A model generated the notes under the pieces. The model made no database searches, was not told the origin of the DNA, and saw only the letters and a list, made by a program, of their open reading frames with translations. 25,912 nt of DNA from a virus: positions 1 through 25,912 of IMG/VR virus record IMGVR_UViG_3300025536_000038. One strand, written 5' to 3'. Shown here piece after piece: positions 322 through 13,244 of the stretch. Numbering within the stretch: the stretch's first letter is position 1; the number at the start of each line of letters is the position of its first letter. The position numbers and the translations under genes are program-made.

Positions 322-480
322 ATGTCCTTAAAAGTCTTAGGTGCCATCATTGTTGTTTTGCTAAACGTCGTTGCGTTTTTAATTGCTAAAGGAGTGGGTA
401 TGTCTGGAAAAGTTGAAGAAATCGAGCAACTTGAAGACGATCTCAACGTTAGCGATAAAGTTAACGATAAAGACGCCTAA
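322..480 (+). CDS. Small single-pass membrane protein (52 aa)
   Basis: The 52-residue protein has one strongly hydrophobic segment at about residues 4-23 (LGAIIVVLLNVVAFLIA). An acidic, charged, probably helical tail follows, rich in Glu, Asp and Lys. The shape is that of a small membrane-anchored phage protein; the family is not recognised. The ATG is preceded by an A/T-rich stretch with no Shine-Dalgarno sequence, and no clear -35/-10 pair of the kind used by its neighbours is visible. A leftward promoter at 731-758 could make RNA antisense to it. Confidence 0.6.
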   Translation: MSLKVLGAIIVVLLNVVAFLIAKGVGMSGKVEEIEQLEDDLNVSDKVNDKDA

Positions 481-633: not shown

Positions 634-663
634 GCGTCGATCCTCCGGTCCCCTACCCTCGCC
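634..663 (-). repeat. Repeated element, copy A (promoter-headed, possible ncRNA)
   Basis: On the + strand this is GTCGATCCTCCGGTCCCC followed by TACCCTCGCC. It is nearly identical to the core at 12287-12316 and related to 13160-13190 and 4185-4215. This copy lacks the TTAACGTTAA palindrome found beside the other three. The leftward promoter at 731-758 would transcribe it as GGCGAGGGTAGGGGACC about 60-90 nt into the RNA. The function is unknown. Confidence 0.6.
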
Positions 664-730
664 GTTTTACCGGTTGTCTGGCTCTTAGTGTCGCCGCCAC
701 TTTTCTGAATCCGTTCCCGAATTGTGAAAG

Positions 731-758
731 AAATTACCATTGCCTAAAGAAATGTCAA
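731..758 (-). promoter_or_regulatory. Leftward promoter for repeat copy A
   Basis: TTGACA, 16-bp spacer, TAATTT, read leftward. It points away from the next rightward gene. The predicted RNA starts near 724 and includes the repeat core at 663-634. No start codon sits at the expected +1, unlike most promoters in this window, which suggests a non-coding transcript. Confidence 0.6.
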
Positions 759-939
759 GGGATTGTTTTAACTAATTCGATTGCCTATTACGTGCCTGGA
801 ATGCCAATAGGATTCGGGAATTTGGGGATCTTCGGTGTACCACAATATAACATCTTCTGAAAACCTGTCAAGTGAAAAGTATAAAAAGGTGTCATTAAAG
901 TACTATTTGACTTATTATACTTCAATGGTACAGTTCATC

Positions 940-1131
940 GTGGAAAAGAAAACAACACTGGTCCATCGGTATAAAAACCACCTGTCATGGCGTGGTAAGA
1001 AGTATGCCAATAACATCACTGGCCGCAGCCTGTTGACCAATGCCATTGTTGACGCGGGTTTTACTGATGTAAGGTTCAATGACCACATTAAACGTCGCCC
1101 AATCTATTTGATGCCTCGGGAACAGATGTAA
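940..1131 (+). CDS. Small basic unknown protein (63 aa)
   Basis: This is a 63-residue basic protein, rich in Lys/Arg, with no recognised family. The GTG at 940 is chosen because TTGACT (907-912), a 16-bp spacer and TACAGT (929-934) end 5 nt before it. That places the transcription start almost at the initiation codon, as in the neighbouring genes. An in-frame start at 835 would put this promoter inside the gene and is less likely. It could be a small DNA- or RNA-binding protein, but only its charge supports that. Confidence 0.7.
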   Translation: MEKKTTLVHRYKNHLSWRGKKYANNITGRSLLTNAIVDAGFTDVRFNDHIKRRPIYLMPREQM

Positions 1132-1175
1132 ATCAATTTCCTTGACTATACGGTTGAATTGTTCTATATTTATCG

Positions 1176-1403
1176 GTGAACGCTTTTAACCGTGAAGTTA
1201 TTGAAAAAGATACGACCGGCCCTTGTGCTTCTGGCCTTGTTGAGAGTTGCGACAAGTGTAACTCTCTTATTTTCAATTGGACTTGTATTGGGGACGTTGC
1301 TTTTCTTGACTCTGATGGTGTTTCGATTCTTTGCTTACGTTGTTGGAATGACAAGCGAACGGCGGCACTGATTCACTTGACAAATATAAAAAGTGAGATA
1401 TAA
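1176..1403 (+). CDS. Small Cys-rich, possible zinc-binding protein (75 aa)
   Basis: The 75-residue protein has Cys pairs CDKC at about residues 25-28 and CLRC at about 53-56, the spacing of a small zinc ribbon; the rest is unrecognised. The start is GTG at 1176, set by TTGACT (1142-1147), a 17-bp spacer and TATATT (1165-1170), leaving 5 nt to the codon. Its end contains the promoter of the next gene: TAATGA at 1401 holds its stop codon and overlaps that -10 box. Confidence 0.7.
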   Translation: MNAFNREVIEKDTTGPCASGLVESCDKCNSLIFNWTCIGDVAFLDSDGVSILCLRCWNDKRTAALIHLTNIKSEI

Positions 1404-1411
1404 TGACGACA

Positions 1412-1759
1412 ATGAAAATTACCAAGCCGGTTGTCATTCATGTTCCGATTGAAACTCTGTATCGAAACTTTGTTGCTTCGGTGTCAGATATCATCTGGGA
1501 TGACCACAACCTTATCCGAAACAATGACTTCATGGAAGACTTTCGGGTGTTGGCCAAAGAAGACGTGGAAGGGATTCGGAGTCTGTTTCAGCAAGGCCAT
1601 ACGATGATGTTGCTGGCTGGCAGTCACGTTCAGATTGTGGAGGACAACCACAGTGAACCGAATGAACCTCAACCTCGTTCTTCTGGTGTTGAAATCCGTT
1701 TGTATGACCGCAAGGGTGATAACGTCGGCGTCATTCTCAACAACGAAATCAACTACTAA
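1412..1759 (+). CDS. Unknown acidic protein (115 aa)
   Basis: 115 residues with no recognised family; it is acidic, with a predicted mixed alpha/beta character. The start is placed at ATG 1412 and not at ATG 1403. TTGACA (1377-1382), a 16-bp spacer and TATAAT (1399-1404) form a consensus promoter, and the 1403 codon overlaps the -10 box while 1412 lies 7 nt after it. The gene at 1765 follows after 5 nt, so the two are probably co-transcribed. Confidence 0.75.
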   Translation: MKITKPVVIHVPIETLYRNFVASVSDIIWDDHNLIRNNDFMEDFRVLAKEDVEGIRSLFQQGHTMMLLAGSHVQIVEDNHSEPNEPQPRSSGVEIRLYDRKGDNVGVILNNEINY

Positions 1760-1764
1760 CCTTT

Positions 1765-2082
1765 ATGCCCTGTACCTACACCGAAACTCCTGAAGAGATT
1801 GCACAATCAGCCAAACAGGCTGAACAACGTCGAAATCGTGAATTGAACAAGGTGACTCGCCTGTTGTGCTTTGTGTTAAGCACTCTTGGTGAAGAGAATA
1901 ACCGAACGGTTGAAGATGTTATCCGTGCTTGTGAGAAGAACAAGGAACTGAAAGCTTGGCGTGCTGACCACGAACGTCGGGACGCCATCCGAGAGAAGGC
2001 CGAGACAAGGGAAGTGGTTAAGAAGAAAGCTCTTGCCAAGTTGTCTGTAGAAGAGAGACGGGTTCTCGGATTGGAAAAGTAA
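1765..2082 (+). CDS. Conserved phage protein of the MPCTYTETPEE type (105 aa)
   Basis: The N-terminus (MPCTYTETPEEIA) and a following charged helical body with an LLCFVL segment resemble a small family I recall as common and uncharacterised in phage genomes; this is memory of a pattern, not a search result. The C-terminal half is a highly charged probable helix or coiled coil (about residues 60-100). It lies 5 nt after the preceding gene, has no promoter of its own, and is followed by the 48-aa gene at 2087. Confidence 0.75.
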   Translation: MPCTYTETPEEIAQSAKQAEQRRNRELNKVTRLLCFVLSTLGEENNRTVEDVIRACEKNKELKAWRADHERRDAIREKAETREVVKKKALAKLSVEERRVLGLEK

Positions 2083-2086
2083 TTAT

Positions 2087-2233
2087 ATGGAAACTATCAC
2101 ATATCAATTGACTTGTCGGGATGGGAATGGTAGGGTTTACATTACTGATGTGAATCAGGATGATTTGGCTCGTCATATCGAGGCCAAGTTCAAACACACC
2201 GACCACGAAATCATTGCCATCATAAAACTGTGA
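2087..2233 (+). CDS. Small unknown protein (48 aa)
   Basis: An ATG 4 nt after the preceding stop opens a 48-residue frame (METITYQLTCRDGNGRVYI...). Its TGA overlaps the GTG start of the next gene (GTGA at 2230-2233), the usual sign of translational coupling. No family is recognised. Confidence 0.65.
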   Translation: METITYQLTCRDGNGRVYITDVNQDDLARHIEAKFKHTDHEIIAIIKL

Positions 2234-2550
2234 AAATTGATATCCACACTCAGAATGCAGTAACCGTCTGTGAACACGAGTATTTCATCGTTGGTGAAGC
2301 TTCAAAGAATGAAGTGACCGGATTACTCGTCGGCACGCCTGTAAAGAAGGTCCAAGAACCTCAGGCGTCACCGTCGAAGTATTGGAAGGGTGATTACTGG
2401 TCCGTCATGGTTGAATGCCCTAATGGGGAAACTCGCACGGTTGGCTGTGATGCCTTGAAACCTTTGGTTGGTTGCACGGCTGAAAATGCCTTCCGTCTTC
2501 AGAGAGAAGCTTTCAATATTGTCTTGACTTCTGCTGGTATTTCTGTATAA
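2230..2550 (+). CDS. Unknown protein (106 aa)
   Basis: The 106-residue protein starts with GTG in a GTGA overlap with the preceding stop, so it is probably the last gene of the 1412-2550 operon. The sequence is mixed alpha/beta in character, with a WKGDYWSVMV stretch near the middle and three cysteines (VECP, GCDA, GCTA). No family is recognised. The promoter of the next gene (TTGACT at 2524-2529) lies inside its last codons. Confidence 0.7.
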   Translation: MKIDIHTQNAVTVCEHEYFIVGEASKNEVTGLLVGTPVKKVQEPQASPSKYWKGDYWSVMVECPNGETRTVGCDALKPLVGCTAENAFRLQREAFNIVLTSAGISV

Positions 2551-2557
2551 TATCGTC

Positions 2558-2719
2558 ATGATACCAAAAGTAAAGACTTGGATTGTGACGGTGAAATCCT
2601 CCAAGACCAAGATTGAAGTTCTCGCTCCCACAAAGTTTCTGGCTCGTCTGAACTTCCGTCATGACTATATGCAGTATTGGGGTGAAGATATCACCATCGG
2701 ATTGAAACGGAACGCTTGA
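2558..2719 (+). CDS. Small basic unknown protein (53 aa)
   Basis: A 53-residue basic frame (MIPKVKTWIVTVKSS...). TTGACT (2524-2529), 16 bp and TATAAT (2546-2551) end exactly 6 nt before the ATG, so the mRNA should begin at the start codon. The -35 of the following gene overlaps its stop codon (cttgaca at 2715-2721). No family is recognised. Confidence 0.7.
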   Translation: MIPKVKTWIVTVKSSKTKIEVLAPTKFLARLNFRHDYMQYWGEDITIGLKRNA

Positions 2720-2749
2720 CATTTCTATAAGAAAGGGTAAAGTCTCACC

Positions 2750-3145
2750 ATGAAAATGACTCCTGAATTGCTTGAAGAACTGAAGAAATGTCAAAACGCT
2801 TTTTACACCTACGTCAATACGCTTTGTAATCGTATTTGTGAACGAGAACGAGGAATGTGTTTTAGTGAACAAATGTCCGGTTGCTTGTATTGGGAAGTCA
2901 GTGGTAAGAATTTCACTGGATTTTACGCAACGCCGTTTTGGGAACAATTGGAACATATTCCGGTTGCTCTCTTTGATTCAGAAGGAGATTTTGTTGGTGA
3001 AGGTGACGAAATTCCCTTTTCTATTAACGACTTGACGATGAACGTGGAACAGGACGCGGAACGGTATGGCAAGGTAATTCGCAAACATTTCAAGAAGAAA
3101 TACAAAGTGGTCATTCCTGAACATGGAGATCTTTCCCATCTATGA
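2750..3145 (+). CDS. Unknown protein (131 aa)
   Basis: A 131-residue protein with a helical N-terminus, two or three Cys around residues 26-45 and a basic C-terminal region (KHFKKKYKVV). TTGACA (2716-2721), 16 bp and TAAAGT (2738-2743) are followed by the 6-nt sequence CTCACC and the ATG. CTCACC or a close variant recurs before several start codons here. The stop overlaps the next start (ATGA). No family is recognised. Confidence 0.75.
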   Translation: MKMTPELLEELKKCQNAFYTYVNTLCNRICERERGMCFSEQMSGCLYWEVSGKNFTGFYATPFWEQLEHIPVALFDSEGDFVGEGDEIPFSINDLTMNVEQDAERYGKVIRKHFKKKYKVVIPEHGDLSHL

Positions 3146-3300
3146 AGACGTTCATCAAAGAACTTTGGAAATCGGTCAAATGCACGTTGTTTCACTGTGG
3201 ACACCATTTCTCTTGGGACGGTGGTTCATGGAGGGGACCATTTGTGTTTCTCCGCGGTCGATGTGAATGCACGAAATGTTACAGAAAATGGAACGGTTGA
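3142..3300 (+). CDS. Small zinc-ribbon-like protein (52 aa)
   Basis: The 52-residue basic protein has Cys at about 14 and 19, a HCGHHF stretch, and a CECTKC cluster at 41-46. This resembles small phage zinc-finger proteins of the DUF1660 kind (C...H...W...CxxC), though the family call is only by pattern. It is coupled to the preceding gene by an ATGA overlap. The promoter of the next gene starts inside its stop codon. Confidence 0.65.
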   Translation: MKTFIKELWKSVKCTLFHCGHHFSWDGGSWRGPFVFLRGRCECTKCYRKWNG

Positions 3301-3336
3301 CTTGCCATTTCCTTTTAATATAGTAAACTCCCTTCA

Positions 3337-3714
3337 ATGAAAAATATCATTACCGATACGGTGGAAGAAATCAATCGTCTTGCTGGTGAAGCCCGTGATC
3401 ATCTTCGGGACAATGGTTGGCGAGAATACGACGAAAAACTCTGGGAATTGGTTGAAAACCTCCAGAAGATTGCTGGACCTGGCTTGAAGCCTGGCAAACA
3501 TTTGAAGTGGAACGTTGCTGATGGTTATGCCCATTACATTGTTCTGAAAGTCAACAAACGGTTTACGGAAGTTGCTTTCATCGATTACATGGATGGATAT
3601 CGGTTCGCAGGTGTTTTCCAAGAAGGCAACAAACTGATGGTTCCAACACCGGTTGCCCAGAAGATGGCCGAATGGCAAGACCGTATGGAAGTTTTGTTCA
3701 AGAAACCGGCTTGA
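3337..3714 (+). CDS. Unknown protein (125 aa)
   Basis: 125 residues, helical N-terminal half with a following beta-rich part; no family recognised. TTGACT (3297-3302), 16 bp and TATAGT (3319-3324) lie 12 nt before the ATG, one of the longer spacings in the set but still without room for a ribosome-binding site. Confidence 0.75.
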   Translation: MKNIITDTVEEINRLAGEARDHLRDNGWREYDEKLWELVENLQKIAGPGLKPGKHLKWNVADGYAHYIVLKVNKRFTEVAFIDYMDGYRFAGVFQEGNKLMVPTPVAQKMAEWQDRMEVLFKKPA

Positions 3715-3744
3715 CATTTCTACAAGAAAGGTTACACTCAAATC

Positions 3745-4110
3745 ATGAAATTAAATCAAGTTTTGCTTCGGGATGTTCGGAATGCTTATTCCGATTGTAA
3801 TGGAACCAAACATGAACGGAACCTTGGTTTTTTGGCCAAGGATTTTTGTTCGGTTAATGAAGCTGTCGCCATCATGGACAAGGCCACGGCCGGTGGATAT
3901 AATGATTTTCGACCATCATTGCTCAAACGGCTGCCACACAATTCCCAAGTCATCTTGGCAAGGGAAGGGTCAGTTTGTGTGTATGTCATGTCGCCTGTTA
4001 CTTTGGATGAATCGGCTACGATTGATTTACTCAAGGCAGATGAATGTGACCTGAAATCTATCGACTTCGACGGACAAAAGATTTCGGTGTATCGCATCTG
4101 GTGGGATTGA
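3745..4110 (+). CDS. Unknown protein (121 aa)
   Basis: 121 residues, no recognised family. Its promoter is a clean example of the local rule: TTGACA (3711-3716), 16 bp, TACACT (3733-3738), 6 nt, ATG. The -35 box overlaps the stop codon of the previous gene. A strong terminator follows at 4134-4163. Confidence 0.75.
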   Translation: MKLNQVLLRDVRNAYSDCNGTKHERNLGFLAKDFCSVNEAVAIMDKATAGGYNDFRPSLLKRLPHNSQVILAREGSVCVYVMSPVTLDESATIDLLKADECDLKSIDFDGQKISVYRIWWD

Positions 4111-4133
4111 TTTCGGAAGCCGTCAGTCAATGG

Positions 4134-4163
4134 ACACCAGTCGAAAGACTGGTGTTCTTTTTT
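4134..4163 (+). terminator. Rho-independent terminator
   Basis: ACACCAGTC (4134-4142), a GAAA tetraloop and GACTGGTGT (4147-4155) form a perfect 9-bp stem followed by a run of T. It ends the rightward block of small genes. Confidence 0.9.
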
Positions 4164-4174
4164 GTTTGGATTAC

Positions 4175-4225
4175 GTTAACGTTAAAGTTTTAAGCGTGCC
4201 CTTGGTCCCACATTCTTAGCGCCCT
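4175..4225 (-). repeat. Repeated element, copy B (palindrome plus GGTCCC core)
   Basis: On the + strand it opens with GTTAACGTTAAAGTTTT and continues with a diverged core containing CCTTGGTCCCAC. It sits after a terminator in a gene-free gap, with a leftward promoter (4261-4288) aimed at it, although both flanking genes run rightward. The TTAACGTTAA centre is a perfect palindrome, shared with copies at 12271 and 13150. Confidence 0.7.
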
Positions 4226-4260
4226 CAGCGTTCCCTCGGGACGGCTTCATCAACGTAAAT

Positions 4261-4288
4261 ACTATAACACACTTCTATAAAAAGTCAA
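4261..4288 (-). promoter_or_regulatory. Leftward promoter for repeat copy B
   Basis: Read leftward: TTGACT, 16-bp spacer, TATAGT. Predicted RNA start is near 4254, about 40 nt before the conserved core. No leftward gene lies downstream (the gene there, 3745-4110, is on the other strand and has its own terminator), so the product is either non-coding RNA or an antisense transcript. Confidence 0.65.
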
Positions 4289-4355
4289 GTCGAAAACGTT
4301 ACTTGTACGAAAGAATCTTGAAGAAAAGAAAAGTAGAAAATTCTGAAATTTCCAT

Positions 4356-4383
4356 TTGACTTATTATAGGTTTGTATTAAGTT
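4356..4383 (+). promoter_or_regulatory. Promoter with long leader for the basic protein gene
   Basis: TTGACT, 16-bp spacer, TAAGTT. The next start codon is at 4458, so the leader would be about 65-70 nt, unlike the leaderless genes around it. The leader is A-rich with no Shine-Dalgarno sequence and may carry translational control or enhancer function. Confidence 0.6.
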
Positions 4384-4457
4384 GTAGGTATCAAGATTGA
4401 GTCACGTTGATTCAATCAAACAACAAAAACTGAACGTTAGTAAAAACAACAAATAAT

Positions 4458-4892
4458 ATGAAGACCAACAACAAGACTGCTCGTAACAACACCAACAACA
4501 CCAAGCGTGGTCCTGGCGCTCCTCCGAAGGAAATCAAGTTTCCCCGTGGTGCTTTCACCATCGCTTCCGTGGTCGCCCTCAACTCGCATGTGTGTGAGCT
4601 GACGGTTCGTAACAAGATCGAGGCTGGTGTCGCCTCCAAGAGTCTGGTCCGTCTGTCCGAAGACCTGAAGACCAAGGCCGTCGGCCGCCCGTCGTTCCGT
4701 TACATGACGGCTGCCGCTGCCAAGGCCGTCAAGTCGAATCGCAAGTCGGCCAAGGCCCGCAAGGCCACCATCACTCCGGCCGTTCTCGCACCGGCTCCGA
4801 TTGCCGAGACTCCGGCCCCTGCCGTTGAAACCGCTCCTGAGATTACGGCCACGGTGACTGAGACTCCGGCCGCTGTCGAAGCTGTCGGCTAA
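4458..4892 (+). CDS. Basic Ala/Pro-rich probable DNA-binding protein (144 aa)
   Basis: The N-terminal 20 residues are Asn/Thr/Lys-rich, then comes an AT-hook-like KRGPGAPPK (about 16-24). A compact middle segment (about 27-80) follows, with a Lys/Ala-rich stretch (85-105) and a Pro/Ala/Thr/Glu tail (105-144) like a histone-H1 or linker tail. It is probably nucleoid-associated or otherwise nucleic-acid binding (inference). It is more G+C-rich than its neighbours, with many C-ending codons (AAC, ACC, AAG, GCC), which suggests high expression. A long A-rich leader and a strong terminator at 4922-4952 isolate it as a single-gene unit. Confidence 0.75.
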   Translation: MKTNNKTARNNTNNTKRGPGAPPKEIKFPRGAFTIASVVALNSHVCELTVRNKIEAGVASKSLVRLSEDLKTKAVGRPSFRYMTAAAAKAVKSNRKSAKARKATITPAVLAPAPIAETPAPAVETAPEITATVTETPAAVEAVG

Positions 4893-4921
4893 TCGGTAAA
4901 CAAATTCAGGCTTGGGAAGAA

Positions 4922-4952
4922 GGGAGGGTGTAAAAACCCTCCCTTTCTTTTT
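4922..4952 (+). terminator. Strong Rho-independent terminator
   Basis: GGGAGGGT (4922-4929), a 6-nt loop and ACCCTCCC (4936-4943) are followed by TTTCTTTTT. The -35 box of the next gene (TTGCCA 4951-4956) begins in the T-run. Confidence 0.95.
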
Positions 4953-4984
4953 GCCAAAACGATAATAAGTGATATATTCTTATC

Positions 4985-5233
4985 GTGAATGCTAGTTCCA
5001 TCAATCAAAAGTATCCAATCAAAAATCAAGTCTGGAGTTTCACCGAAACAACTGGACGATGGGCTGCCGAGGATTCGTGTCTTCGGGCCAATGGTTTCCT
5101 TGACCCTTGGAACCGGCCATTTCCACCAGGCAAGGGAAGAGAAGTGCGGGATGAAGACAATGACATTACAATGTGGGTGTACACAACTACGGTTGAGGGT
5201 GTTACTGTAGAGTGTATCGTCTTCAATGATTGA
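4985..5233 (+). CDS. Unknown protein (82 aa)
   Basis: 82 residues, no recognised family; contains TGRWAAEDSCLRANGFLD in the middle. The GTG start is fixed by TTGCCA (4951-4956), 16 bp, TATATT (4973-4978) and a 6-nt gap. A second frame of similar length in this interval (4989-5210) is a shadow without promoter support. Confidence 0.7.
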   Translation: MNASSINQKYPIKNQVWSFTETTGRWAAEDSCLRANGFLDPWNRPFPPGKGREVRDEDNDITMWVYTTTVEGVTVECIVFND

Positions 5234-5273
5234 CCCTTGACATTCCTTCAATTGATAGTATAATCTCCGTCAC

Positions 5274-6698
5274 ATGAATCTTACTGGACTTCTTGAACCT
5301 CAGAAGGCTCACGCAATGACTTTGATTGACAGCCTTTACCTTAATGGTGTGGCTGCTGACCTGTCGGAAACAGGTTGTGGAAAGACTCACGTCGCTTCTT
5401 GTATTGCAAGGGGAATGAATTGTCCAATCGTGGTTATCTGCCCCAAGATGGTAATGCCTGACTGGGAAGCAACGTTGGCCGTCTATGGATTGAAGCCGAC
5501 GATTATCATCAATTACGAAAAGCTTTGCCGTGGCAATACAAAGTTTCTGAAGTATAAGAACCCGAAGGCTGGTGATTCGCACGTTCGCTCCACAAAGAAA
5601 ACTCATAAGGTGGAACGTTTCCTTACTGCCACCATTAAACTCCCGCCTGGATGTCTTGTGATTCTTGATGAGTCGCACAAGTGTAAAGGTGCTTCGAGTC
5701 TCAATGCTGGATTGATGATTGCCTTGAAACGTCAAGGTTATCGTTGCCTTCTTTTGTCGGCTACACAAGCCACAAATCCTCTTGAGATGAAGGCGTTCGG
5801 TTACGTCGCCAATCTTCACAAACTTTCCGACTTCAATGAATTCTGTATTGATTACGGTGCTCAATGGGTTGGAAAGTGGGGTGCTCAGTATTTCGATTCT
5901 GAAGATAAGGAAGCACAAGCCAAGATGAAGCAGTGTCATCACAACTTGTTTGATGTTCAGAAAATTTCTTCCCGTCTTACTCGTGAATCGATGGGTAGTT
6001 TGTTTCCGGAAAATCAAATCATCGTTAAAGCTTATGACATGGGCAATGCCGATAAAATCCAAGCTCGTTATGATTGGATGGAAGATGAAATTGCCCGACT
6101 TCAGGAACGCACGGAGAATTATGCTCAACATATTCTCGCCATCATTATCAAAGCCCGTCGTGAGATTGAATTGCTCAAGGTGCCTACCATCTTGGAAATG
6201 ATGGAAGATTTGTATGATGAAGGAAAGTCTGTCGGCGTTTTTGTAAACTTCACTGATACGATTGAACTCATTCAACGTCGATTGGCTTCCAATAAAAAGT
6301 TCGTCGGCAAAATCGGATTGATTTACGGTGGCCAATCCGTCAATGACCGTATCCAAGACGTTGCCGACTTCAATGCCGATAAAAAGAGAATTATTATCGC
6401 CAACAATGCCGCAGGGGGACAATCGATTAATCTTCATGATATCACGGGCAAACATCCGCGTGCTACTATCATCAATCCGAATTACTCGGCGATTCAATTG
6501 CTTCAAGTGCTTGGTCGAATTCATCGTCAAGGTGGTTTGTCCAAGTGTTATCAACGTATTCTCTTTGCTGCTGGAACTCGGGAAGAACAAATCTGCCGTC
6601 GATTGAATGCCAAGATTACAAATTTGAGTTTGCTCAATGACGGTGACATGGTTGAAGGAATGAAATTTTTCCGATTCTTGATGGGTCGAAGCATATAA
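5274..6698 (+). CDS. SNF2/DEAD-like superfamily 2 helicase (474 aa)
   Basis: An ATP-dependent superfamily 2 helicase or translocase. The Walker A motif is SETGCGKTH (about 31-39), motif II is DESH (132-135), motif III is SAT (161-163) and motif VI is GRIHRQG (413-419), with the Q-like LLEPQKAH at the N-terminus. The DESH box and single core, without long insertions, match short phage SNF2-like helicases. Such proteins act in phage replication, recombination or transcription; the exact role cannot be read here. TTGACA (5237-5242), 16 bp, TATAAT (5259-5264), 9 nt and ATG set the start. A long frame on the opposite strand is a shadow. Confidence 0.93.
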   Translation: MNLTGLLEPQKAHAMTLIDSLYLNGVAADLSETGCGKTHVASCIARGMNCPIVVICPKMVMPDWEATLAVYGLKPTIIINYEKLCRGNTKFLKYKNPKAGDSHVRSTKKTHKVERFLTATIKLPPGCLVILDESHKCKGASSLNAGLMIALKRQGYRCLLLSATQATNPLEMKAFGYVANLHKLSDFNEFCIDYGAQWVGKWGAQYFDSEDKEAQAKMKQCHHNLFDVQKISSRLTRESMGSLFPENQIIVKAYDMGNADKIQARYDWMEDEIARLQERTENYAQHILAIIIKARREIELLKVPTILEMMEDLYDEGKSVGVFVNFTDTIELIQRRLASNKKFVGKIGLIYGGQSVNDRIQDVADFNADKKRIIIANNAAGGQSINLHDITGKHPRATIINPNYSAIQLLQVLGRIHRQGGLSKCYQRILFAAGTREEQICRRLNAKITNLSLLNDGDMVEGMKFFRFLMGRSI

Positions 6699-6760
6699 GA
6701 ATAGGGAAATAGTTAAAATAAATTGAGAAATGGTTTTTTGTAACCTATTTGTCCCCAGTA

Positions 6761-7618: not shown

Positions 7619-7841
7619 TCAGTCCAGTCGGAACCTGTTTCAACTCCAAGATGTAATGGATGAAACGAAGTTGAGCGAATCCATTCATAACGCAATCAAA
7701 CTTCTTGCCAATGGTGGTCATGTACTTGTAAAGTTCAAAGATAAGATGTTTATGGCTGAAAAGGATAATGTTAATCCGGAAAGAGATTACGTTACTCGTG
7801 GTCTGACATATCATCCACATCAAGACAAGTTTACAATTTAG
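7560..7841 (+). CDS. Unknown protein overlapping the upstream gene (93 aa)
   Basis: 93 residues, no recognised family. The internal MDETKLSESIHNAIKLLANG part looks like a compact helical domain. The ATG at 7560 lies 6 nt after a consensus -10 and inside the upstream gene, overlapping it by 59 nt in a different frame. A shorter start at the MDETK methionine (7656) is possible. The stop is followed 3 nt later by tRNA-Arg, so mRNA and tRNAs may be one transcript. Confidence 0.7.
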   Translation: MTPIAQLVIVFQNTLKNSGNQSSRNLFQLQDVMDETKLSESIHNAIKLLANGGHVLVKFKDKMFMAEKDNVNPERDYVTRGLTYHPHQDKFTI

Positions 7842-7844
7842 ATT

Positions 7845-7921
7845 GCGCTCGTAGCTCAGTTGGATAGAGCAACGGTTTTCTAAACCGTCGGTCGCAGGTT
7901 CGAGTCCTGCCGGGCGTACCA
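7845..7921 (+). tRNA. tRNA-Arg (anticodon TCT)
   Basis: A full cloverleaf with encoded CCA: acceptor GCGCTCG/CGGGCGT, D-arm GCTCAGTTGGATAGAGC, anticodon arm ACGGT-TTTCTAA-ACCGT (TCT, reads AGA), T-arm GCAGG-TTCGAGT-CCTGC. It starts 3 nt after the preceding gene and 4 nt before tRNA-Lys. Confidence 0.95.
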
Positions 7922-7925
7922 ATTT

Positions 7926-8000
7926 GCGTCGGTAGCTCAATGGTAGAGCAGCGGACTTTTAATCCGTTGGTTCCGGGTTCGAGTCCCGGCCGGCGCACCA
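7926..8000 (+). tRNA. tRNA-Lys (anticodon TTT)
   Basis: Acceptor GCGTCGG/CCGGCGC, anticodon arm GCGGA-CTTTTAA-TCCGT, T-arm with TTCGAGT loop, encoded CCA at 7998-8000. Standard 75-nt bacterial-type tRNA. Confidence 0.95.
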
Positions 8001-8016
8001 CTCTTCTAACAAATCC

Positions 8017-8044
8017 TTGACAAATATAAAATGTGAGGTAACAT
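8017..8044 (+). promoter_or_regulatory. Promoter of the SAP-like gene
   Basis: TTGACA, 16-bp spacer (AATATAAAATGTGAGG), TAACAT, 5 nt, ATG 8050. The first half closely matches the promoter at 1377-1404 (TTGACAAATATAAAA). Confidence 0.7.
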
Positions 8045-8049
8045 CCAGT

Positions 8050-8283
8050 ATGATTTTGATTCACAGTGAGATGACGAAAGAGCAGATGCTCGACCTGTTG
8101 ATGTATCGTGACATTACCATCAACGGTTTGAAACAGATGTGCCGTTTCTGCCAAATTGATGATTCTGGTTTGAAGCCCGAACCTATTCGTAAACGGCTTC
8201 TTCAACATTTTGCTGGCGACGAGGTTGAACCTACTAAGAAAGTTCGTGGCGGTGTTCATCTCTTCGGTTCGATGGGTAGTTAA
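8050..8283 (+). CDS. SAP-domain-like small protein (77 aa)
   Basis: Residues about 20-48 (ITINGLKQMCRFCQID... IRKRLLQHF) match the SAP pattern: Leu-x-x-Leu-Cys, a short loop, a basic residue, then a Leu-rich second helix. SAP folds usually bind DNA. A longer frame begins at TTG 8017, which is the -35 box itself, so ATG 8050, 5 nt after the -10, is preferred. It sits between tRNA genes. Confidence 0.7.
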   Translation: MILIHSEMTKEQMLDLLMYRDITINGLKQMCRFCQIDDSGLKPEPIRKRLLQHFAGDEVEPTKKVRGGVHLFGSMGS

Positions 8284-8291
8284 GATTTTTT

Positions 8292-8441
8292 GCCTGTGTA
8301 GCTCAGCCAGGTGGTCACGTCGGAGTAAGAGGGTAGGGAGATAAACGCGTATAAGTCCCGAGAGTATGAAACGCAACGATGACCTTTTAGAGCATCCGGC
8401 TATTAACCGGAAGGGCGTTGGTTCAAATCCTTCCACAGGCT
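8292..8441 (+). tRNA. tRNA-Asn-like gene with a 72-nt hairpin in the D-loop
   Basis: Acceptor GCCTGTG (8292-8298) pairs perfectly with CACAGGC (8434-8440). D-stem GCTC (8301-8304) pairs with GAGC (8390-8393). Anticodon arm TCCGG-CTATTAA-CCGGA (8395-8411) has anticodon ATT (reads AAU, Asn). T-loop is TTCAAAT. Between the D-stem halves an extra stem, GGTCACGT (8313-8320) with ACGATGACC (8376-8384), carries a large hairpin. The T-stem GTTGG/CCTTC has two T-T mismatches and the 3' end reads TTCA, not NCCA, so it may be immature, processed or decaying. No known tRNA intron class fits a D-loop site. Confidence 0.7.
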
Positions 8442-8451
8442 TCATTTTGTT

Positions 8452-8625
8452 ATGAATGAGTATATCAAAGACAGAACTGGTAAAATCATCGGAAAGGATG
8501 ATGGTAAAGTCTTGCGTGACCGTACTGGCAAAATCGTTGCCAAGTATGATGAATACGATAATACAACTCGTGATAGAAATGGCAACATCGTTGGTAAAGG
8601 CGACCAGAGAAAAAGATTGCTTTAA
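8452..8625 (+). CDS. Small Gly/Asp/Lys repeat protein (57 aa)
   Basis: The 57-residue protein is made of three imperfect repeats of a RDRTGKIVGK-type unit (KDRTGKIIGKDDG, RDRTGKIVAKYDE, RDRNGNIVGKGDQ), each likely a short beta hairpin. Similar small repeat proteins are common in bacteria and phages, with no known function. The start lies 10 nt after the tRNA-like gene, and no separate promoter is seen. Confidence 0.7.
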   Translation: MNEYIKDRTGKIIGKDDGKVLRDRTGKIVAKYDEYDNTTRDRNGNIVGKGDQRKRLL

Positions 8626-8628
8626 CAC

Positions 8629-8656
8629 TTGACGTTTTTATAGAGTGTTGTATAGT
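8629..8656 (+). promoter_or_regulatory. Promoter of the non-coding block
   Basis: TTGACG, 16-bp spacer, TATAGT; predicted start near 8663. No credible gene follows for more than 550 nt, so it should drive a non-coding RNA. Confidence 0.7.
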
Positions 8657-9000
8657 TATTTACGGTAAGGAAAGACGTGGATAAGTCGAAAGCGAAGATG
8701 GAAGACGTTGGAACTTACTATAATAGAAAAAATACGAACCTGTTAGCGTGTCTGAGCAGATCAGTCGGTTTATAAATGAAACAAATTGGTTAACCGACTC
8801 CGACTAATAAGGGATTGCTGGAGTGGATGGCGGACCTGTGGCAGTAGCCTATGGTAATAACGTAGCCAGTTGAAACGATGAGAGCATGAACAGTGACACG
8901 GTACTTTTGAACCTGAGCGGTGGGCATCTTGGTCTAAAGAAGATGAAAGCCACAGTCACGAGACGGTAAATAATGTTTGATGTATCACCGCCGTTTCAAG
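8657..9000 (+). ncRNA. Candidate structured RNA upstream of initiator tRNA
   Basis: A gene-free stretch headed by the promoter at 8629-8656. Visible stems: AGTCGGTT (8763-8770) with AACCGACT (8792-8799); and CTATG-GTAATAA-CGTAG (8849-8865), which has the 5+7+5 geometry of a tRNA anticodon arm. No T-arm or acceptor stem completes a tRNA, and I do not see RNase P, tmRNA or group I intron signatures. Boundaries are approximate. Confidence 0.45.
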
Positions 9001-9028
9001 TTGACAACAGAGCAATCGGTGGTATAAT
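9001..9028 (+). promoter_or_regulatory. Promoter upstream of initiator tRNA
   Basis: TTGACA, 16-bp spacer, TATAAT (perfect consensus hexamers). Predicted start is near 9035, about 206 nt before the initiator tRNA. Confidence 0.75.
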
Positions 9029-9240
9029 AATGATAGTAGTGAAGCAAGTCCAATAAGGGAAAGTTGAAAAGGATAGATGGGAACCAAAGGATTCCCAGCT
9101 TGCTTCAAAACCAGCACAGTTGCAAGAGTGGTTTCCGGATGAACCACCGGCCCGAATAGGACGCAGGTTCCTCCTAAGAAGAGGAAAACAAAAACCGGCT
9201 CGAATTTCGTCGTAGAAGCTTTTAAGCTCCGACAACAGAT
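9029..9240 (+). ncRNA. Structured leader RNA before initiator tRNA
   Basis: The transcript begins with GAAGCAAG (9041-9048), pairing perfectly with CTTGCTTC (9099-9106). That stem encloses GGGAA (9079-9083) with TTCCC (9092-9096). Next come GTGGTT (9128-9133) with AACCAC (9142-9147), and TTCCTC with GAGGAA near 9170-9183. It may be a precursor leader cut from the tRNA, or an independent RNA. Short open frames on the opposite strand here lack promoters and are not called. Confidence 0.5.
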
Positions 9241-9315
9241 TGCAGGGTGGAGCAGTGGCAGCTCGTCTGGCTCATAACCCGAAGGTCACAGGTTCGATTC
9301 CTGTCCCTGCTACCA
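9241..9315 (+). tRNA. Initiator tRNA-fMet (anticodon CAT)
   Basis: 75 nt with encoded CCA, closely matching bacterial initiator tRNA. D-arm GAGC...GCTC has the initiator-type A11-U24. The anticodon loop is CTCATAA and the stem keeps GG/CC next to the loop. The acceptor pairs GCAGGG with CCCTGC while position 1-72 is T-T, unpaired, as needed for formylation and exclusion from elongation. Of the three initiator G-C pairs, 29-41 is T-C here; variants of these pairs are known in some natural initiators. An initiator tRNA is rare in phages. Confidence 0.9.
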
Positions 9316-9588
9316 TTTAATGCTTGAATACTGCGACAATAATACATGTTAAAAAGTCGCCAACCGAAAGGTAGTCTTCAGGCTCCAATTTCTTAGCGAT
9401 TAACAAGAATGTAGGTCCGGCGTAAAACGTCCGGTTTCTCGACGGAGAAAGGCTTCTGCAGAGGCCGTTGGAACGTAAACCAACAACGGAGATGGCACCC
9501 TCCTGCTAAGGATTCATTTGAAGGCAGTAGAGACTATGGATAAACGGATAAGAGAGTCGGCCAATGTTCGATTCCGCCTTTAATATAT
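9316..9588 (+). other. Gene-free structured stretch between tRNAs
   Basis: No protein gene is supported. Hairpins are visible: TTTCTC (9435-9440) with GAGAAA (9445-9450), and CCGTTG (9465-9470) with CAACGG (9484-9489). A T-arm-like GTTCGATTCC occurs near 9565 but has no matching acceptor or anticodon arm nearby, so I do not call a tRNA. It could be a diverged tRNA or a precursor spacer. Confidence 0.4.
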
Positions 9589-9616
9589 TTGACATTTGTC
9601 AGATATAGAGTATAGT
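9589..9616 (+). promoter_or_regulatory. Promoter whose +1 coincides with the Gly-like tRNA 5' end
   Basis: TTGACA, 16-bp spacer, TATAGT. The expected start is 9623-9624, and the tRNA-like cloverleaf begins at 9624, so no 5' leader would need removal. Confidence 0.75.
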
Positions 9617-9623
9617 TATGTGT

Positions 9624-9698
9624 GCGGGTTTGTTGTAAGGAGAAGCAAGGGCTCTATCCAGAGTCAGGTCCGGTGAGCGTTGCCCGGAACCCGCTCCA
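9624..9698 (+). tRNA. Atypical tRNA-Gly-like RNA with encoded CCA
   Basis: 75 nt, cloverleaf-compatible. Acceptor GCGGGTT (9624-9630) pairs with AACCCGC (9688-9694), then U73 and CCA. D-arm TTGT/GCAA has a GG-containing loop. Anticodon arm GGCTC/GAGTC has a 6-nt loop TATCCA, and a T-arm-like CCGG/CCGG has a 10-nt loop lacking TTC. G1-C72, C2-G71, U73 and a CC-containing anticodon loop are glycine identity features. The short anticodon loop and aberrant T-loop argue against normal decoding; it could be a non-translational tRNA-like RNA. Confidence 0.55.
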
Positions 9699-9708
9699 CA
9701 GTTTTTAT

Positions 9709-9783
9709 GGCCCGGTCGTCTAGTGGCTAGGACGCTGCCCTTTCAAGGCGGAGAAGAGGGGTCGGAACCCTCTCGGGCTACCA
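9709..9783 (+). tRNA. tRNA-Glu (anticodon TTC)
   Basis: Acceptor GGCCCGG/TCGGGCT (G-U at both ends), D-arm TCTAGTGGCTAGGA, anticodon arm CTGCC-CTTTCAA-GGCGG, T-stem GAGGG/CCCTC with an unusual loop GTCGGAA (G at the usual T54), encoded CCA at 9781-9783. Last gene of the rightward arm. Confidence 0.88.
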
Positions 9784-9795
9784 TTTCAAACAAGA

Positions 9796-9821
9796 AAGGT
9801 CACGAATTAGTGGCCTTTTTT
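9796..9821 (+). terminator. Terminator of the tRNA block
   Basis: AAGGTCAC (9796-9803), 6-nt loop, GTGGCCTT (9810-9817), then a T-run. It ends the rightward arm. Confidence 0.85.
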
Positions 9822-9878
9822 GATCCCCCTATGGGGAGGGTACCCCCACCCCCTATAAAAATTGTCGCCCCTACGCAA

Positions 9879-9908
9879 GAAAAGGGCCCCTCGTGGTAGA
9901 GGGGCCTT
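9879..9908 (-). terminator. Terminator of the leftward arm
   Basis: Read leftward, GGCCCCTC (9906-9899) pairs with GAGGGGCC (9892-9885) and a short U-run follows. It faces the rightward terminator at 9796-9821, marking convergence of the two transcription arms. Confidence 0.85.
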
Positions 9909-9928
9909 GAAGACGAGACACCAAATGA

Positions 9929-10642
9929 TTATTCCTCCGACTTGTGGAAGGATATCAGTTCGACCTTACCACGAATCTTTTTCTGTTGGAACGCCTTGAA
10001 TGTTCCTTTGTCATCCGTCACTTCGGCCAATTCATAACCACGAACGTAAACGTCATTGGCGAATGTGACCCGGATAATTCGTTCCACAGGAAGGCCGGTG
10101 GAGCTGGATGGATACGTAAAACGAACGACAGGAAAAACCGTAGAATGTCCCAGACACTCTTGAACCCTATCCAACGTATCGGTTGACACTTCAAAGTCAT
10201 GAACAATGTCCCGGTCCAGTACAGAACGTTTCACGAGATTGACCTTGACGGTCTTTGCGTCGGTATCGACGACGAATTTAATTGACCGATCATCATGCAA
10301 TTCCTCAATTGTCACGTCGGTTTTGGGTTTTACCGGATGTTCCACGAAATCAAGGACTTCCGAAAGATTGTTGCCGGTCAGTCGGATGCTCGTATAAGAG
10401 TAGTTGCCGACAGCTTTGACGTTGCTTTGAACAACGTTATCCCAAGAAAGGCTCTTGGTTTCGGTGTTCAAGTAAATCACACACTGTTTGGCCGGGAATT
10501 TGATAACAACCGGTTGAGTGTCGAAACGATTCCACTTGTAACCAAGCCCAAACAGGGCTAATTGAAGTGGATTGACATTCTTGCCGACTGATAAAACAGT
10601 TGGGTCAAAAATGATGGCGAGAGTTTTGTTTTTCACATTCAT
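9929..10642 (-). CDS. Unknown protein (237 aa)
   Basis: 237 residues, beta-rich in appearance, no recognised family and no clear motif. It is the last gene of the leftward arm. Its promoter (TTGCCT-N16-TATAGT, read leftward from about 10694) lies about 22 nt before the ATG, a longer leader than most genes here and A/T-rich without a Shine-Dalgarno sequence. A terminator follows at 9879-9908. Confidence 0.8.
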   Translation of the reverse strand: MNVKNKTLAIIFDPTVLSVGKNVNPLQLALFGLGYKWNRFDTQPVVIKFPAKQCVIYLNTETKSLSWDNVVQSNVKAVGNYSYTSIRLTGNNLSEVLDFVEHPVKPKTDVTIEELHDDRSIKFVVDTDAKTVKVNLVKRSVLDRDIVHDFEVSTDTLDRVQECLGHSTVFPVVRFTYPSSSTGLPVERIIRVTFANDVYVRGYELAEVTDDKGTFKAFQQKKIRGKVELISFHKSEE

Positions 10643-10717
10643 AAATAAATTTGTTTCAACTTACACTATACACCACCTGCCCCAGTAGGCAAGGGTTTTG
10701 TGGGAGTACCCCCAGCG

Positions 10718-10936
10718 CTACTCCACCGGTTCAGGAATAGGGCTGTCGGACCACTCACATTCATTTTCCGGAAAGAGGCTTAACGCCGTTCCGTATTCAT
10801 TGAATTCGACGGCACAAACTCGCCAGGCGTCAATCTCCGCATCGGGATGATGGGCTATGACAATCACCTTTGTTTTGCCCCAGCCACGGAACCAGTAACG
10901 GCCGGGTTTCGTTGGTTTCTTTCGTGTCCATTTCAT
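10718..10936 (-). CDS. DUF551-like small phage protein (72 aa)
   Basis: 72 residues with the N-terminal PTKPGRYWFRGW and the C-terminal EWSDSPIPEP that recall the DUF551 group of small phage and prophage proteins (PGWYW...W..PIPEP). No function is established. It begins 3 nt after the GP88 gene stop, so the two are probably one mRNA. An inverted repeat GGAGTA/TACTCC follows in the gap to 10643. Confidence 0.75.
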   Translation of the reverse strand: MKWTRKKPTKPGRYWFRGWGKTKVIVIAHHPDAEIDAWRVCAVEFNEYGTALSLFPENECEWSDSPIPEPVE

Positions 10937-10939
10937 AAA

Positions 10940-11794
10940 TCAAGCTGCCATCTGTTCAGCAGAAACACTCTTCCCCCCTACGGAGTTGGCTTTAGGGGTA
11001 CCCCTCCCCTTCTTTTTCGAGGCATTGATTCTGGCCCAGCCATTTGCCACAGCAGGCTTTTTGTGAACGTCATAAGAGCCACCGTAGCCGCCTTTCTTTT
11101 CCTTTCGGAGTTTACGGAGAGCAAGATTGGCATCCGTCCCTTTAGGTTGAGTCCCGTGCAACAAGAGAGCGAATGAAGGGCCTGCTGTGTATGCGTGGCT
11201 ATCGTCATGGTCAATCTCCAGACCCAGAGCCGCTGCCTGCTCCTCCGTATAAACAACCTTTGCGTAACGCAAATTGTGCGCTTCAATCATGTCGTCAAAC
11301 TTGCCACCGAAAGAGGCCGTCAGAATGAAGTTAGAAGGAATGTCCGCCAGTCGGGCCACCCAGAAGGGAAGGCTCTTTGTGTAGGCGTAGAGAAGGAAAT
11401 TCTTCTTTTCCTTGGCGACTTCCAGCCACGCGTCAAAGTAAGTCTGGCTGAAAAAGTCACCAGCAACGTGAATCCGAACGACAACTTGAAACGGAGTTGA
11501 CGGAAGCGATTGAATGATAAGAGCCTTCATTGCTTCCACCGTTTTGGCGTTACGGAGTAGTTCAAAGTTATTCCAGCGTGACTCCCGAACGTTACGGAAG
11601 AGGCATTCCTGACTCGCCGAGAAACAACGGAATTGACAACCGGCGCCATCCGTAATCTTTCCAGTTTCCTTGTCGGCCTTTGAAAGACAAGCGGATGCCC
11701 CCGGACAACTGTAACCAGACGGAAGGGAAAAGGTTTGAATGTTACCGTCAAGTTTGGCGTTACCCTTACCGAAAACCAGTAGGTTTTTATTCAT
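10940..11794 (-). CDS. GP88-family protein (284 aa)
   Basis: The N-terminal part, with LPSGYSCPGASAC (about 24-36) and further Cys at 53, 57 and 64, then RIHVAGDFFSQ (about 109-119), matches the phage gene product 88 family. The Cys cluster suggests a metal or Fe-S site; the biochemical function is unknown. The C-terminus is Lys/Gly-rich. The start is ATG 11794: read leftward, TTGCCA-N17-TATAGT ends 6 nt before it. An in-frame start at 11863 would lie upstream of the promoter and is rejected. Confidence 0.85.
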   Translation of the reverse strand: MNKNLLVFGKGNAKLDGNIQTFSLPSGYSCPGASACLSKADKETGKITDGAGCQFRCFSASQECLFRNVRESRWNNFELLRNAKTVEAMKALIIQSLPSTPFQVVVRIHVAGDFFSQTYFDAWLEVAKEKKNFLLYAYTKSLPFWVARLADIPSNFILTASFGGKFDDMIEAHNLRYAKVVYTEEQAAALGLEIDHDDSHAYTAGPSFALLLHGTQPKGTDANLALRKLRKEKKGGYGGSYDVHKKPAVANGWARINASKKKGRGTPKANSVGGKSVSAEQMAA

Positions 11795-11817
11795 AATGAG
11801 ACTATAACAGAGTTGAA

Positions 11818-11991
11818 TTAGTTTGGCAAATCTTGTTTTGTAATCCAAGAAGCCATTCGCCAATTGGTTTTGTCATAAGAAATTGCAATCAATTGATTGC
11901 CTTTCCAGAGAAAGTAAATGACAGCCCGGCCAAGAAAACCACTGCGGACTTCCTCAAGAGTCAACCCCGTATTTTTATCGGTTGTTATCAT
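11818..11991 (-). CDS. Small unknown protein (57 aa)
   Basis: 57 residues (MITTDKNTGLTLEEVRSG..., with a FLGRAVIYFLWKGNQLIAISYD core of beta character). It begins in an ATGA overlap with the stop of the acidic gene upstream. The promoter of the GP88 gene overlaps its last codons (TTGCCAAAC encodes Leu-Pro-Asn before the stop). Confidence 0.7.
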   Translation of the reverse strand: MITTDKNTGLTLEEVRSGFLGRAVIYFLWKGNQLIAISYDKTNWRMASWITKQDLPN

Positions 11992-12215
11992 TCGCCTCCG
12001 TATTCATCCGCCATCGGCGTATCGTGGAAATAATCTTCATCCGTGCCCATTCCAGCAGAAGCCAATGCGTCGGCATCCGCTTCAACGTCATCCCGGAAGT
12101 TATCTTCACGGGGTTCCTGTTCACCATCGAATTCGGAAACGTCATCACCCGACAAGCCATCCTCGGGCCACTCGGCAGGCATTTCGTCGATAACCATCGG
12201 AAAATCATCGTTCAT
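11988..12215 (-). CDS. Small highly acidic protein (75 aa)
   Basis: 75 residues, about a third Asp/Glu and almost no basic residues; probably disordered. Highly acidic small phage proteins often mimic DNA or block host enzymes, but nothing specific supports that here. Read leftward, TTGACA-N16-TATTGT-6 nt-ATG sets the start. Confidence 0.75.
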   Translation of the reverse strand: MNDDFPMVIDEMPAEWPEDGLSGDDVSEFDGEQEPREDNFRDDVEADADALASAGMGTDEDYFHDTPMADEYGGE

Positions 12216-12267
12216 GCCTACACAATAACAGAAAGAAATTGATTGTCAAATGATTCTTTAACTATTT

Positions 12268-12316
12268 ACTTTAACGTTAAAGTTTTTGTCGATCCCCTGG
12301 TCCCCTACCCTCGCCT
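12268..12316 (-). repeat. Repeated element, copy C
   Basis: On the + strand it opens with the 16-bp perfect palindrome ACTTTAACGTTAAAGT (12268-12283). GTCGATCCCCTGGTCCCC (12289-12306) and TACCCTCGCC follow. It is the best-preserved copy; the same order is seen at 13150 and 4175, with the core alone at 634. It lies between the terminator at 12365 and the promoter of the gene at 12215. Confidence 0.8.
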
Positions 12317-12332
12317 TGTCGGCTGTTAATAC

Positions 12333-12360
12333 AGTTTAACATTCAATTAAAAAAAGTCAA
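12333..12360 (-). promoter_or_regulatory. Leftward promoter for repeat copy C
   Basis: Read leftward: TTGACT, 16 bp, TAAACT; start near 12326, about 10 nt before the conserved core. It follows directly after the terminator of the 208-aa protein gene. Confidence 0.65.
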
Positions 12361-12364
12361 GGAC

Positions 12365-12394
12365 AAAAAAGGCCGGGGAATTTCTTCCCCGGCT
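12365..12394 (-). terminator. Rho-independent terminator
   Basis: Read leftward, GCCGGGGAA (12393-12385) pairs with TTCCCCGGC (12380-12372), then a U-run. It ends the 12459-13085 gene. Confidence 0.92.
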
Positions 12395-12458
12395 TGAATC
12401 GAAGAACAGAACACTGAAAGAAATCTGTGATTTATTTTAACTTGTCTTTGGTTGAGTG

Positions 12459-13085
12459 TCAAGCGACAACCGGCTTCTTGTCGTCAATGTTCGCCAGAAT
12501 GTTCTTAAACTGCGCCAGGCGATTCGAGATGCGGCTGACAAGGTTGTTCTTCATTTCGACCCGGCGAGCCTTCAGGACTCGAATGGAGTCGATTCCAAGG
12601 GTAATCACGGTGGGCTTGTATTCCGCCCGATTGTCTTCCTGAACGAAAGTCTTCATGACGGCGACCTGTTCAGGCGTCATCTTGACACCATTGAAGTAGT
12701 ACTCGTTGCGGCCGAGAGTCTTGTGAGGAAAATACTGGAGATAGTGTTTCTTGCTGTCTTTCTTGTGAACACACAAGGGAAGGGCCTTGCCGTCATCCGT
12801 TTGAGTGTGAGTGTACCACGTCTCGCCGGGCGTGTATTCAACCTTGTTGCCACCGTTCGCTTCGGCCAGGTTCCGTTCAACGGCTGCCACATAGTTGACG
12901 TTAATCAGACCATTGCGACGGCTGACTTTCATAACGCCGGAAGCGAAGGGATTGCCAGTCTTCCGCATCTTGACGGGAGTTTCCGTCAGCATGGAAACGA
13001 ATCGGCATTCAGTCCCGAGGGAACGAATGAAACCAACCATTTCGTTTTTGTCTTGAATTGTCACCGTAGTAGATTTTTTATTCAT
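12459..13085 (-). CDS. Conserved phage protein of unknown function (208 aa)
   Basis: The sequence has blocks (VKMRKTGNPFASG, KVSRRNGLINVNY, EYTPGETWYTH, LCVHKKDSKKHYLQYFPHK) that I recognise as a conserved but uncharacterised phage protein found in diverse phages. It is basic and likely a soluble, possibly nucleic-acid-binding protein. Read leftward, TTGACA-N16-TATATT-6 nt-ATG is a textbook local promoter. A terminator at 12365-12394 makes it a single-gene unit, and repeat copies C and D flank it. Confidence 0.85.
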   Translation of the reverse strand: MNKKSTTVTIQDKNEMVGFIRSLGTECRFVSMLTETPVKMRKTGNPFASGVMKVSRRNGLINVNYVAAVERNLAEANGGNKVEYTPGETWYTHTQTDDGKALPLCVHKKDSKKHYLQYFPHKTLGRNEYYFNGVKMTPEQVAVMKTFVQEDNRAEYKPTVITLGIDSIRVLKARRVEMKNNLVSRISNRLAQFKNILANIDDKKPVVA

Positions 13086-13149
13086 GGTAGGAATATATCA
13101 AAAGAATTTCAGTTGTCAAATCTTTTTTATATCGAAGTGAAGTATTCCG

Positions 13150-13195
13150 TTAACGTTAAAGTTTTTGTCGATCCCCTGGTCCCCCACTCTTGACG
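13150..13195 (-). repeat. Repeated element, copy D
   Basis: On the + strand: GTTAACGTTAAAGTTTTTGT, then CGATCCCCTGGTCCCC, ending in a diverged CACTCTTGACG. From TTAACGTTAAAGTTTTTGTC through CCTGGTCCCC it is identical to copy C. The leftward promoter at 13217-13244 reads into it. Confidence 0.8.
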
Positions 13196-13216
13196 TTTGA
13201 CCGTCTCAACACTACA

Positions 13217-13244
13217 AACTTATCAGAAAAAGAAAATAAGTCAA
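13217..13244 (-). promoter_or_regulatory. Leftward promoter for repeat copy D
   Basis: Read leftward: TTGACT, 16 bp, TAAGTT, start near 13210. The -35 overlaps the right part of the preceding terminator hairpin, so termination and new initiation are packed together. Confidence 0.65.

Follow-up and report, generated by a model that had tools for sequence, protein, structure and literature searches.

The window analysed here, a virus record of 25,912 bases (IMG/VR record IMGVR_UViG_3300025536_000038) with five tRNAs and many tiny open reading frames (ORFs), carries four copies of a short promoter-headed element that recurs in other phage contigs. These copies probably belong to a new family of small phage RNAs, ~55–110 nt long and present in multiple copies, that act in trans through an invariant core. 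The element is real, conserved and absent from the databases searched, and the evidence supports a promoter-driven RNA element with a selected structure, present in many copies and independent of its neighbours. In transcript order it comprises a sigma70-type promoter, a hairpin, an AGRGUAGGGGACC core, a spacer of 16–17 nt and a CUUUAWCGWUA box.

Definition of the element

A first-pass annotation of the window had grouped four leftward-facing sites around a shared core, GTCGATCC...GGTCCCC. This core was present in three of the four copies and absent from the copy at 4185–4225, which reads GTGGGACC on the transcript strand; an 18-nt version, GTCGATCCN3GGTCCCC, was found at exactly three window sites (636–653, 12288–12305 and 13167–13184) with no control match. 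The grouping itself held, as the four sites formed the top direct-repeat family (D1) with 63–100 % identity over 46 nt, and the 4185–4225 copy is a true but diverged member, as shown by its profile score and its orthologue in contig G001. The unit was more accurately described on the minus strand, as AGRGTAGGGGACC followed after 16 or 17 nt by CTTTAWCGWTA. The palindrome TTAACGTTAA, noted beside three of the four cores, was exact at 4176, 12271 and 13150 and occurred nowhere else, but its description as a strict palindrome had to be abandoned: in relatives the right half drifts against a fixed left half, leaving a one-sided box.

The leftward promoter predicted at each copy was recovered as hexamers beside all four, only two of which passed a 9-of-12 promoter scan, and copies 1 and 2 have theirs despite being flanked on both sides by rightward genes. 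The single orientation described for the window was also seen in G001 and G004 and broke down in other relatives, with one of the five G002 copies inverted and both orientations present in G007 and G008.

Distribution among uncultured phages

Relatives were collected by pattern scans over 2.9 million viral contigs followed by filtering by eye for promoter, hairpin and box. Beyond the window, the element was found in 14 further IMG/VR phage contigs, namely G001 (250,813 bp), G002 (365,299 bp; counted as one with the near-identical G003) and G004–G015, and whole-record searches gave a total of ~44 copies over 15 contigs, window included. The copy number was ~5 per well-covered genome. Where the whole genome was present, the copies were clustered in one region of ~20 kb (214–232 kb in G001 and 230–251 kb in G002), with tRNA genes in or near the copy regions of both genomes. 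A lack of other copies and of conservation in relatives, named in the first-pass annotation as speaking against the element, is clearly contradicted by these findings.

A sequence model built from 30 copies (R1) recovered copies outside its training set in G007, G008, G005 and G015, as well as window copy 1, the last with an E value of 1e-8. In a profile scan of 246 kb of phage DNA, known copies scored 18.5–33 bits and anything else at most 9.8 bits. The 164-nt stretch holding copy 3 was 87 % identical between the window and G001, compared with 77–82 % for segments with flanking genes.

No Rfam 15 covariance model matched at the elements at E values up to 1–2, and BLASTN of two element regions against 50,697 annotated phage records returned nothing comparable. 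R1 gave no match on LR756508, Microcystis phage Mel-JY01 or Flavobacterium phage immuto, three named or metagenomic phages picked via nearest protein matches. A scan of bacterial genomes with the 18-nt core yielded at least 118 stretches; those read in context were mostly GC-rich and without promoter and box, and the matches were dismissed as chance.

Promoter, hairpin and box

The promoters have the sigma70-type form TTGAC(A/T)-16-TAnnnT. Among 34 copies, 27 had a strict same-strand promoter within 110 nt upstream and two had one on the opposite strand, compared with 7.4 % of random intergenic points. Within sub-families the RNA 5′ letters (ACAG-, GTTGATGAGG- or ATARTAAAGATG-) were identical and lay at a constant distance from the -10 box, a pattern that a genuine start would give.

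The hairpin has three to five pairs and ends 1–2 nt 5′ of the core. Over the 34 copies, the pairing probability at bases 2–4 before the core was 0.79, 0.94 and 0.94, against 0.28–0.38 in shuffled sequences, a test that is free of layout-selection bias. In an alignment of 13 copies, all 65 of 65 cells were paired, with GGC/GCC, GAC/GUC, GGU/ACC and AGC/GCU interchanging, and four of the five pairs showed double (compensatory) changes, which none of 500 shuffles matched; as these are related sequences with members chosen by shared layout, the independent events are fewer than the cells. When the partner was slid, pairing fell to 18–48 %. Selection on the hairpin at the RNA level is therefore well supported, and the compensatory changes are those the first-pass annotation had proposed to look for. 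Two other pairings were rejected: a second hairpin, GUAGG/CCUGC, can be drawn in many copies and was paired at 66.7 % against 66.3 % in shuffles, and base-pairing between the RNA 5′ end and the box gave a mean run of 3.87 against 3.62.

The core and the box were separated by 16 or 17 nt in all listed boxed copies, and conservation ends after the box, the sequences then diverging. In a few copies of G007, G013 and G014 the box centre is replaced by CUGAAAA, giving an AU hairpin of eight pairs; at L203:10566 (+) and L203:56 (-) it takes the form UUACUUUA-CUGAAAA-UAAAGUAA. The replacement is a hint that in some copies the box may function at the RNA level. As judged by inspection of the 34 copies only, loop lengths vary out of frame and no common start or reading frame was seen; a short AUG-started ORF in some copies was discounted, its frame not being conserved.

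The box also occurs apart from the core. In 320 kb, 17 CTTTAWCGWTA sites without a linked core were counted against 1.7 expected, some of them being linked boxes read on the reverse strand. Two 'variant II' units, at L164:15780 (-) and L172:3790 (+), have promoter, hairpin and box, with GGAAGG(C/T)AG where the GUAGGGGACC core would stand. Another short RNA-like unit, 'RNA-B' (GTATGCGTTATGGC...; L179:905 and L164:17661), lies beside class-1 copies and likewise ends in CTTTAWCGWTA; in the window (downstream of copy 1), G001 and G004 it seems to be fused to the copy upstream. Three copies without the usual box have a displaced one 170–190 nt downstream (window 472, L147:2460 and L165:17951), which presumably has a role. 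The box may therefore serve several short phage RNAs as a common 3′ module.

Window copies and their genomic context

The features of the four window copies are listed in Table 1. In G001, the orthologue of the copy 1 hairpin is ACG-GTAAAA-CGT, a compensatory change, and the copy at 232265 has an upstream promoter of the same kind as copy 1; the orthologue of copy 2 lies at 228338, and TTGACT and TAAGTT of the copy 4 promoter are common to the copy at 218173. The displaced box of copy 1 is conserved in G001 at the L147 site given above, with an analogous box in G004 at the L165 site.

Table 1. Positions of the element's features in the window
Feature	Position	Strand	Details
Copy 1 promoter	731..758	-	TTGACA-16-TAATTT; predicted RNA start ~724
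Copy 1 hairpin	662..673	-	CCG-GTAAAA-CGG, just 5′ of core
Copy 1 core	647..659	-	AGGGTAGGGGACC; profile 33.2 bits; 3′ box absent at usual distance
Copy 1 displaced box	462..472	-	CTTTATCGTTA; ~190 nt downstream, within small rightward ORF 322–480
Copy 2 promoter	4261..4288	-	TTGACT-16-TATAGT; predicted start ~4254
Copy 2 hairpin	4218..4246	-	AGC...GCT with inner stem; covaries (GGU/ACC, GGC/GCC, GAC/GUC in relatives)
Copy 2 core	4204..4216	-	AGAATGTGGGACC, diverged; 18.5 bits against noise <10
Copy 2 3′ box	4177..4187	-	CTTTAACGTTA; 16 nt past core
Copy 3 promoter	12333..12360	-	TTGACT-16-TAAACT; predicted start ~12326; conserved at G001 219445
Copy 3 hairpin	12313..12323	-	GCC-GACAA-GGC
Copy 3 core	12299..12311	-	AGGGTAGGGGACC
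Copy 3 3′ box	12272..12282	-	CTTTAACGTTA
Copy 4 promoter	13217..13244	-	TTGACT-16-TAAGTT; predicted start ~13210
Copy 4 hairpin	13192..13205	-	GACG-GTCAAA-CGTC
Copy 4 core	13178..13190	-	AGAGTGGGGGACC
Copy 4 3′ box	13151..13161	-	CTTTAACGTTA

On the codon-based gene map made in this analysis, the copies sit in intergenic gaps and are followed in about half of the cases by a gene on their own strand, in about half by one on the opposite strand. Of the window copies, 3 and 4 share the direction of the leftward genes around them, and 1 and 2 are antisense to rightward genes. This mixed orientation of neighbours points to independent genes rather than to the leader of a protein gene.

Several other features were also observed. 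At window 8294–8446 (+) there is a tRNA-like sequence, GCCTGTGTAGCTCAG...CTATTAA...GGTTCAAATCCTTCCACAGGC, with an interruption of ~80 nt in the D-arm region and no ARAGORN call, which would be a split, intron-bearing or decayed tRNA. Long non-coding stretches lie between tRNA genes at 8630–9240 and 9316–9700, with strong rightward promoters (TTGACA-16-TATAAT at 9001–9028 and TTGACA-16-TATAGT at 9589–9616), and may hold further RNAs of unrecognised type. A transfer-messenger RNA (tmRNA) is present in related phages (L145:7242–7649, L164:8566–8981, L206:6390–6804 and L203:17225–17600), and G001, G004 and G005 have a tRNA called Pyl (anticodon CTA), possibly an amber suppressor. At L149:1834–5133 (-) a ribonucleotide reductase of 1,099 aa has an HNH-endonuclease-like insert in its middle, probably an intein.

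Alternative explanations

The closest rival is a cis-acting nascent-RNA element resembling HK022 put, in which hairpin and core would bind RNA polymerase and alter pausing or termination, perhaps at the box. The put RNA binds RNA polymerase, is ~70 nt long and consists almost entirely of two long stem-loops, and the pause on which it acts lies 21 nt beyond its second stem in the downstream direction (PMC9378689). Like the present element, it is a short phage RNA directly after a promoter, with more than one copy per genome (PMC9378689), and the fixed 16–17 nt between core and box is a spacing of the kind that action on a polymerase halted at the box would call for. Unlike put, which works in cis on its own transcript, the element has one short hairpin with unpaired conserved boxes and occurs in ~5 copies, about half of which face opposing genes and would send polymerase antisense through them. 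The element does not show the pair of stems by which put is defined, the second stem being unsupported. A put-like role is unlikely; a polymerase-directed role of some kind is possible given the fixed core–box distance. A long 5′ leader was the second option of the first-pass annotation. As a leader or riboswitch belonging to the protein gene next to it, the element would account for the same-strand gene that begins ~100 nt after the core start in about half of the copies. The other half face a next gene on the opposite strand, several of the same-strand genes have a strong promoter of their own between box and start codon, and Rfam provided no match, so this explanation is extremely unlikely.

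At the DNA level, the box could be the operator of a phage DNA-binding protein, with core and hairpin as further DNA contacts. The box is close to a palindrome (TAWCGWTA, with each of the four W combinations occurring), and the excess of unlinked boxes, though partly made up of reverse-strand readings of linked ones, would fit such sites. A DNA site does not account for a hairpin that covaries and keeps a single phase before the core, nor for a box centre replaced by a longer loop in some copies, and inspection placed many of the unlinked boxes at promoter-headed RNA-like units or showed them to be the palindrome partners of linked ones; we regard this as distinctly unlikely. The first-pass annotation had also raised RNA-primed replication or packaging sites; no positive evidence was found for RNA-primed replication, and a single obligatory direction fails in relatives. 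A replication start of the R-loop type, with the G-rich RNA as primer and the AT-rich box as unwinding element, would match the promoter at every site, the G-rich transcript followed by an AT-rich box and the mostly uniform orientation in the window, G001, G002 and G004. Against it stand five closely spaced copies in ~20 kb, both orientations in G007 and G008, the inverted G002 copy and the covarying hairpin, which R-loops do not need, and it is very unlikely.

Comparison with other known systems

The nut sites of lambda and P22 also have a small hairpin, and in some element copies the loop has five bases, GACAA or GACGA, as a further likeness. The box sequence CUUUAAC recalls nut boxA, CUCUUUAAC. 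The element differs from nut in its reversed order of hairpin and box, its non-conserved hairpin loop, its G-rich core, for which nut has no equivalent, and the half of its copies that face opposing genes. With phage small regulatory RNAs in general, the element shares an independent promoter, a short hairpin, an unpaired conserved segment and an intergenic position; no phage small RNA is known to us to form a family with ~5 paralogues in each genome that share a 3′ box.

A likeness to the 3′ end of 16S rRNA (helix 45 and tail), GUAGGGGA(A)CC...CCUGCG..UUGAU..CCUUUA, was confined to the G002/G004 sub-lineage, in which most copies reached a per-copy p of ~0.003–0.01. Mimicry of this region was rejected: most copies outside that sub-lineage were not above shuffles, and it was usually not the best rRNA match. 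KOPS, CsrA sites and G-quadruplexes were also considered and set aside as presumably inconsistent across copies.

A proposed multicopy small-RNA family

A family of small RNAs, the first of the options raised at the outset, agrees with the conserved promoters, the covarying hairpin, conservation ending at the box, gene-like placement and copies in relatives, and the ~60–120 nt then predicted agrees with the conserved span. Each site would be an independent small-RNA gene, with a host-type sigma70 promoter starting the transcript from a few to ~65 nt before the hairpin. The hairpin would be followed by a single-stranded invariant GUAGGGGACC segment, the 16/17-nt spacer and CUUUAWCGWUA at or near the RNA 3′ end, giving an RNA of roughly 55–110 nt. 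Judging from the sequences, the transcripts are probably made and would end near the box, and the core would be presented in trans to one shared target, either an RNA or a protein encoded by host or phage. Such paralogues number ~5 per genome in a clade of large uncultured phages, clustered in a region of tRNAs and small genes where whole genomes were present, and would differ in hairpin or timing.

Several results weigh against this proposal. Core complementarity to Escherichia coli rRNA was no better than shuffled, and no other strong core match was seen on either strand of the scanned phage DNA. The box retains a near-palindromic character that could mean a DNA-binding site. An intrinsic terminator is missing after 32 of the 34 copies; this is weak counter-evidence because terminators are about equally rare after genes, where the same test finds 27 in 303.

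More speculatively, the element may be a new class of multicopy phage RNA whose hairpin, GUAGGGGACC core and fixed-spacing box work as a single device, present at ~5 loci around the tRNA region, to capture or reprogram a core host machine (RNA polymerase, the ribosome or an RNA-binding protein); we hold this tentatively. Large uncultured phages have many host-takeover genes and few known non-coding RNAs. With the model and coordinates given here, the element is open to direct tests, through transcriptomes of infected cells and through pull-downs that use a short synthetic RNA. A repeated, conserved RNA gene with an invariant core suggests a common target worth finding.

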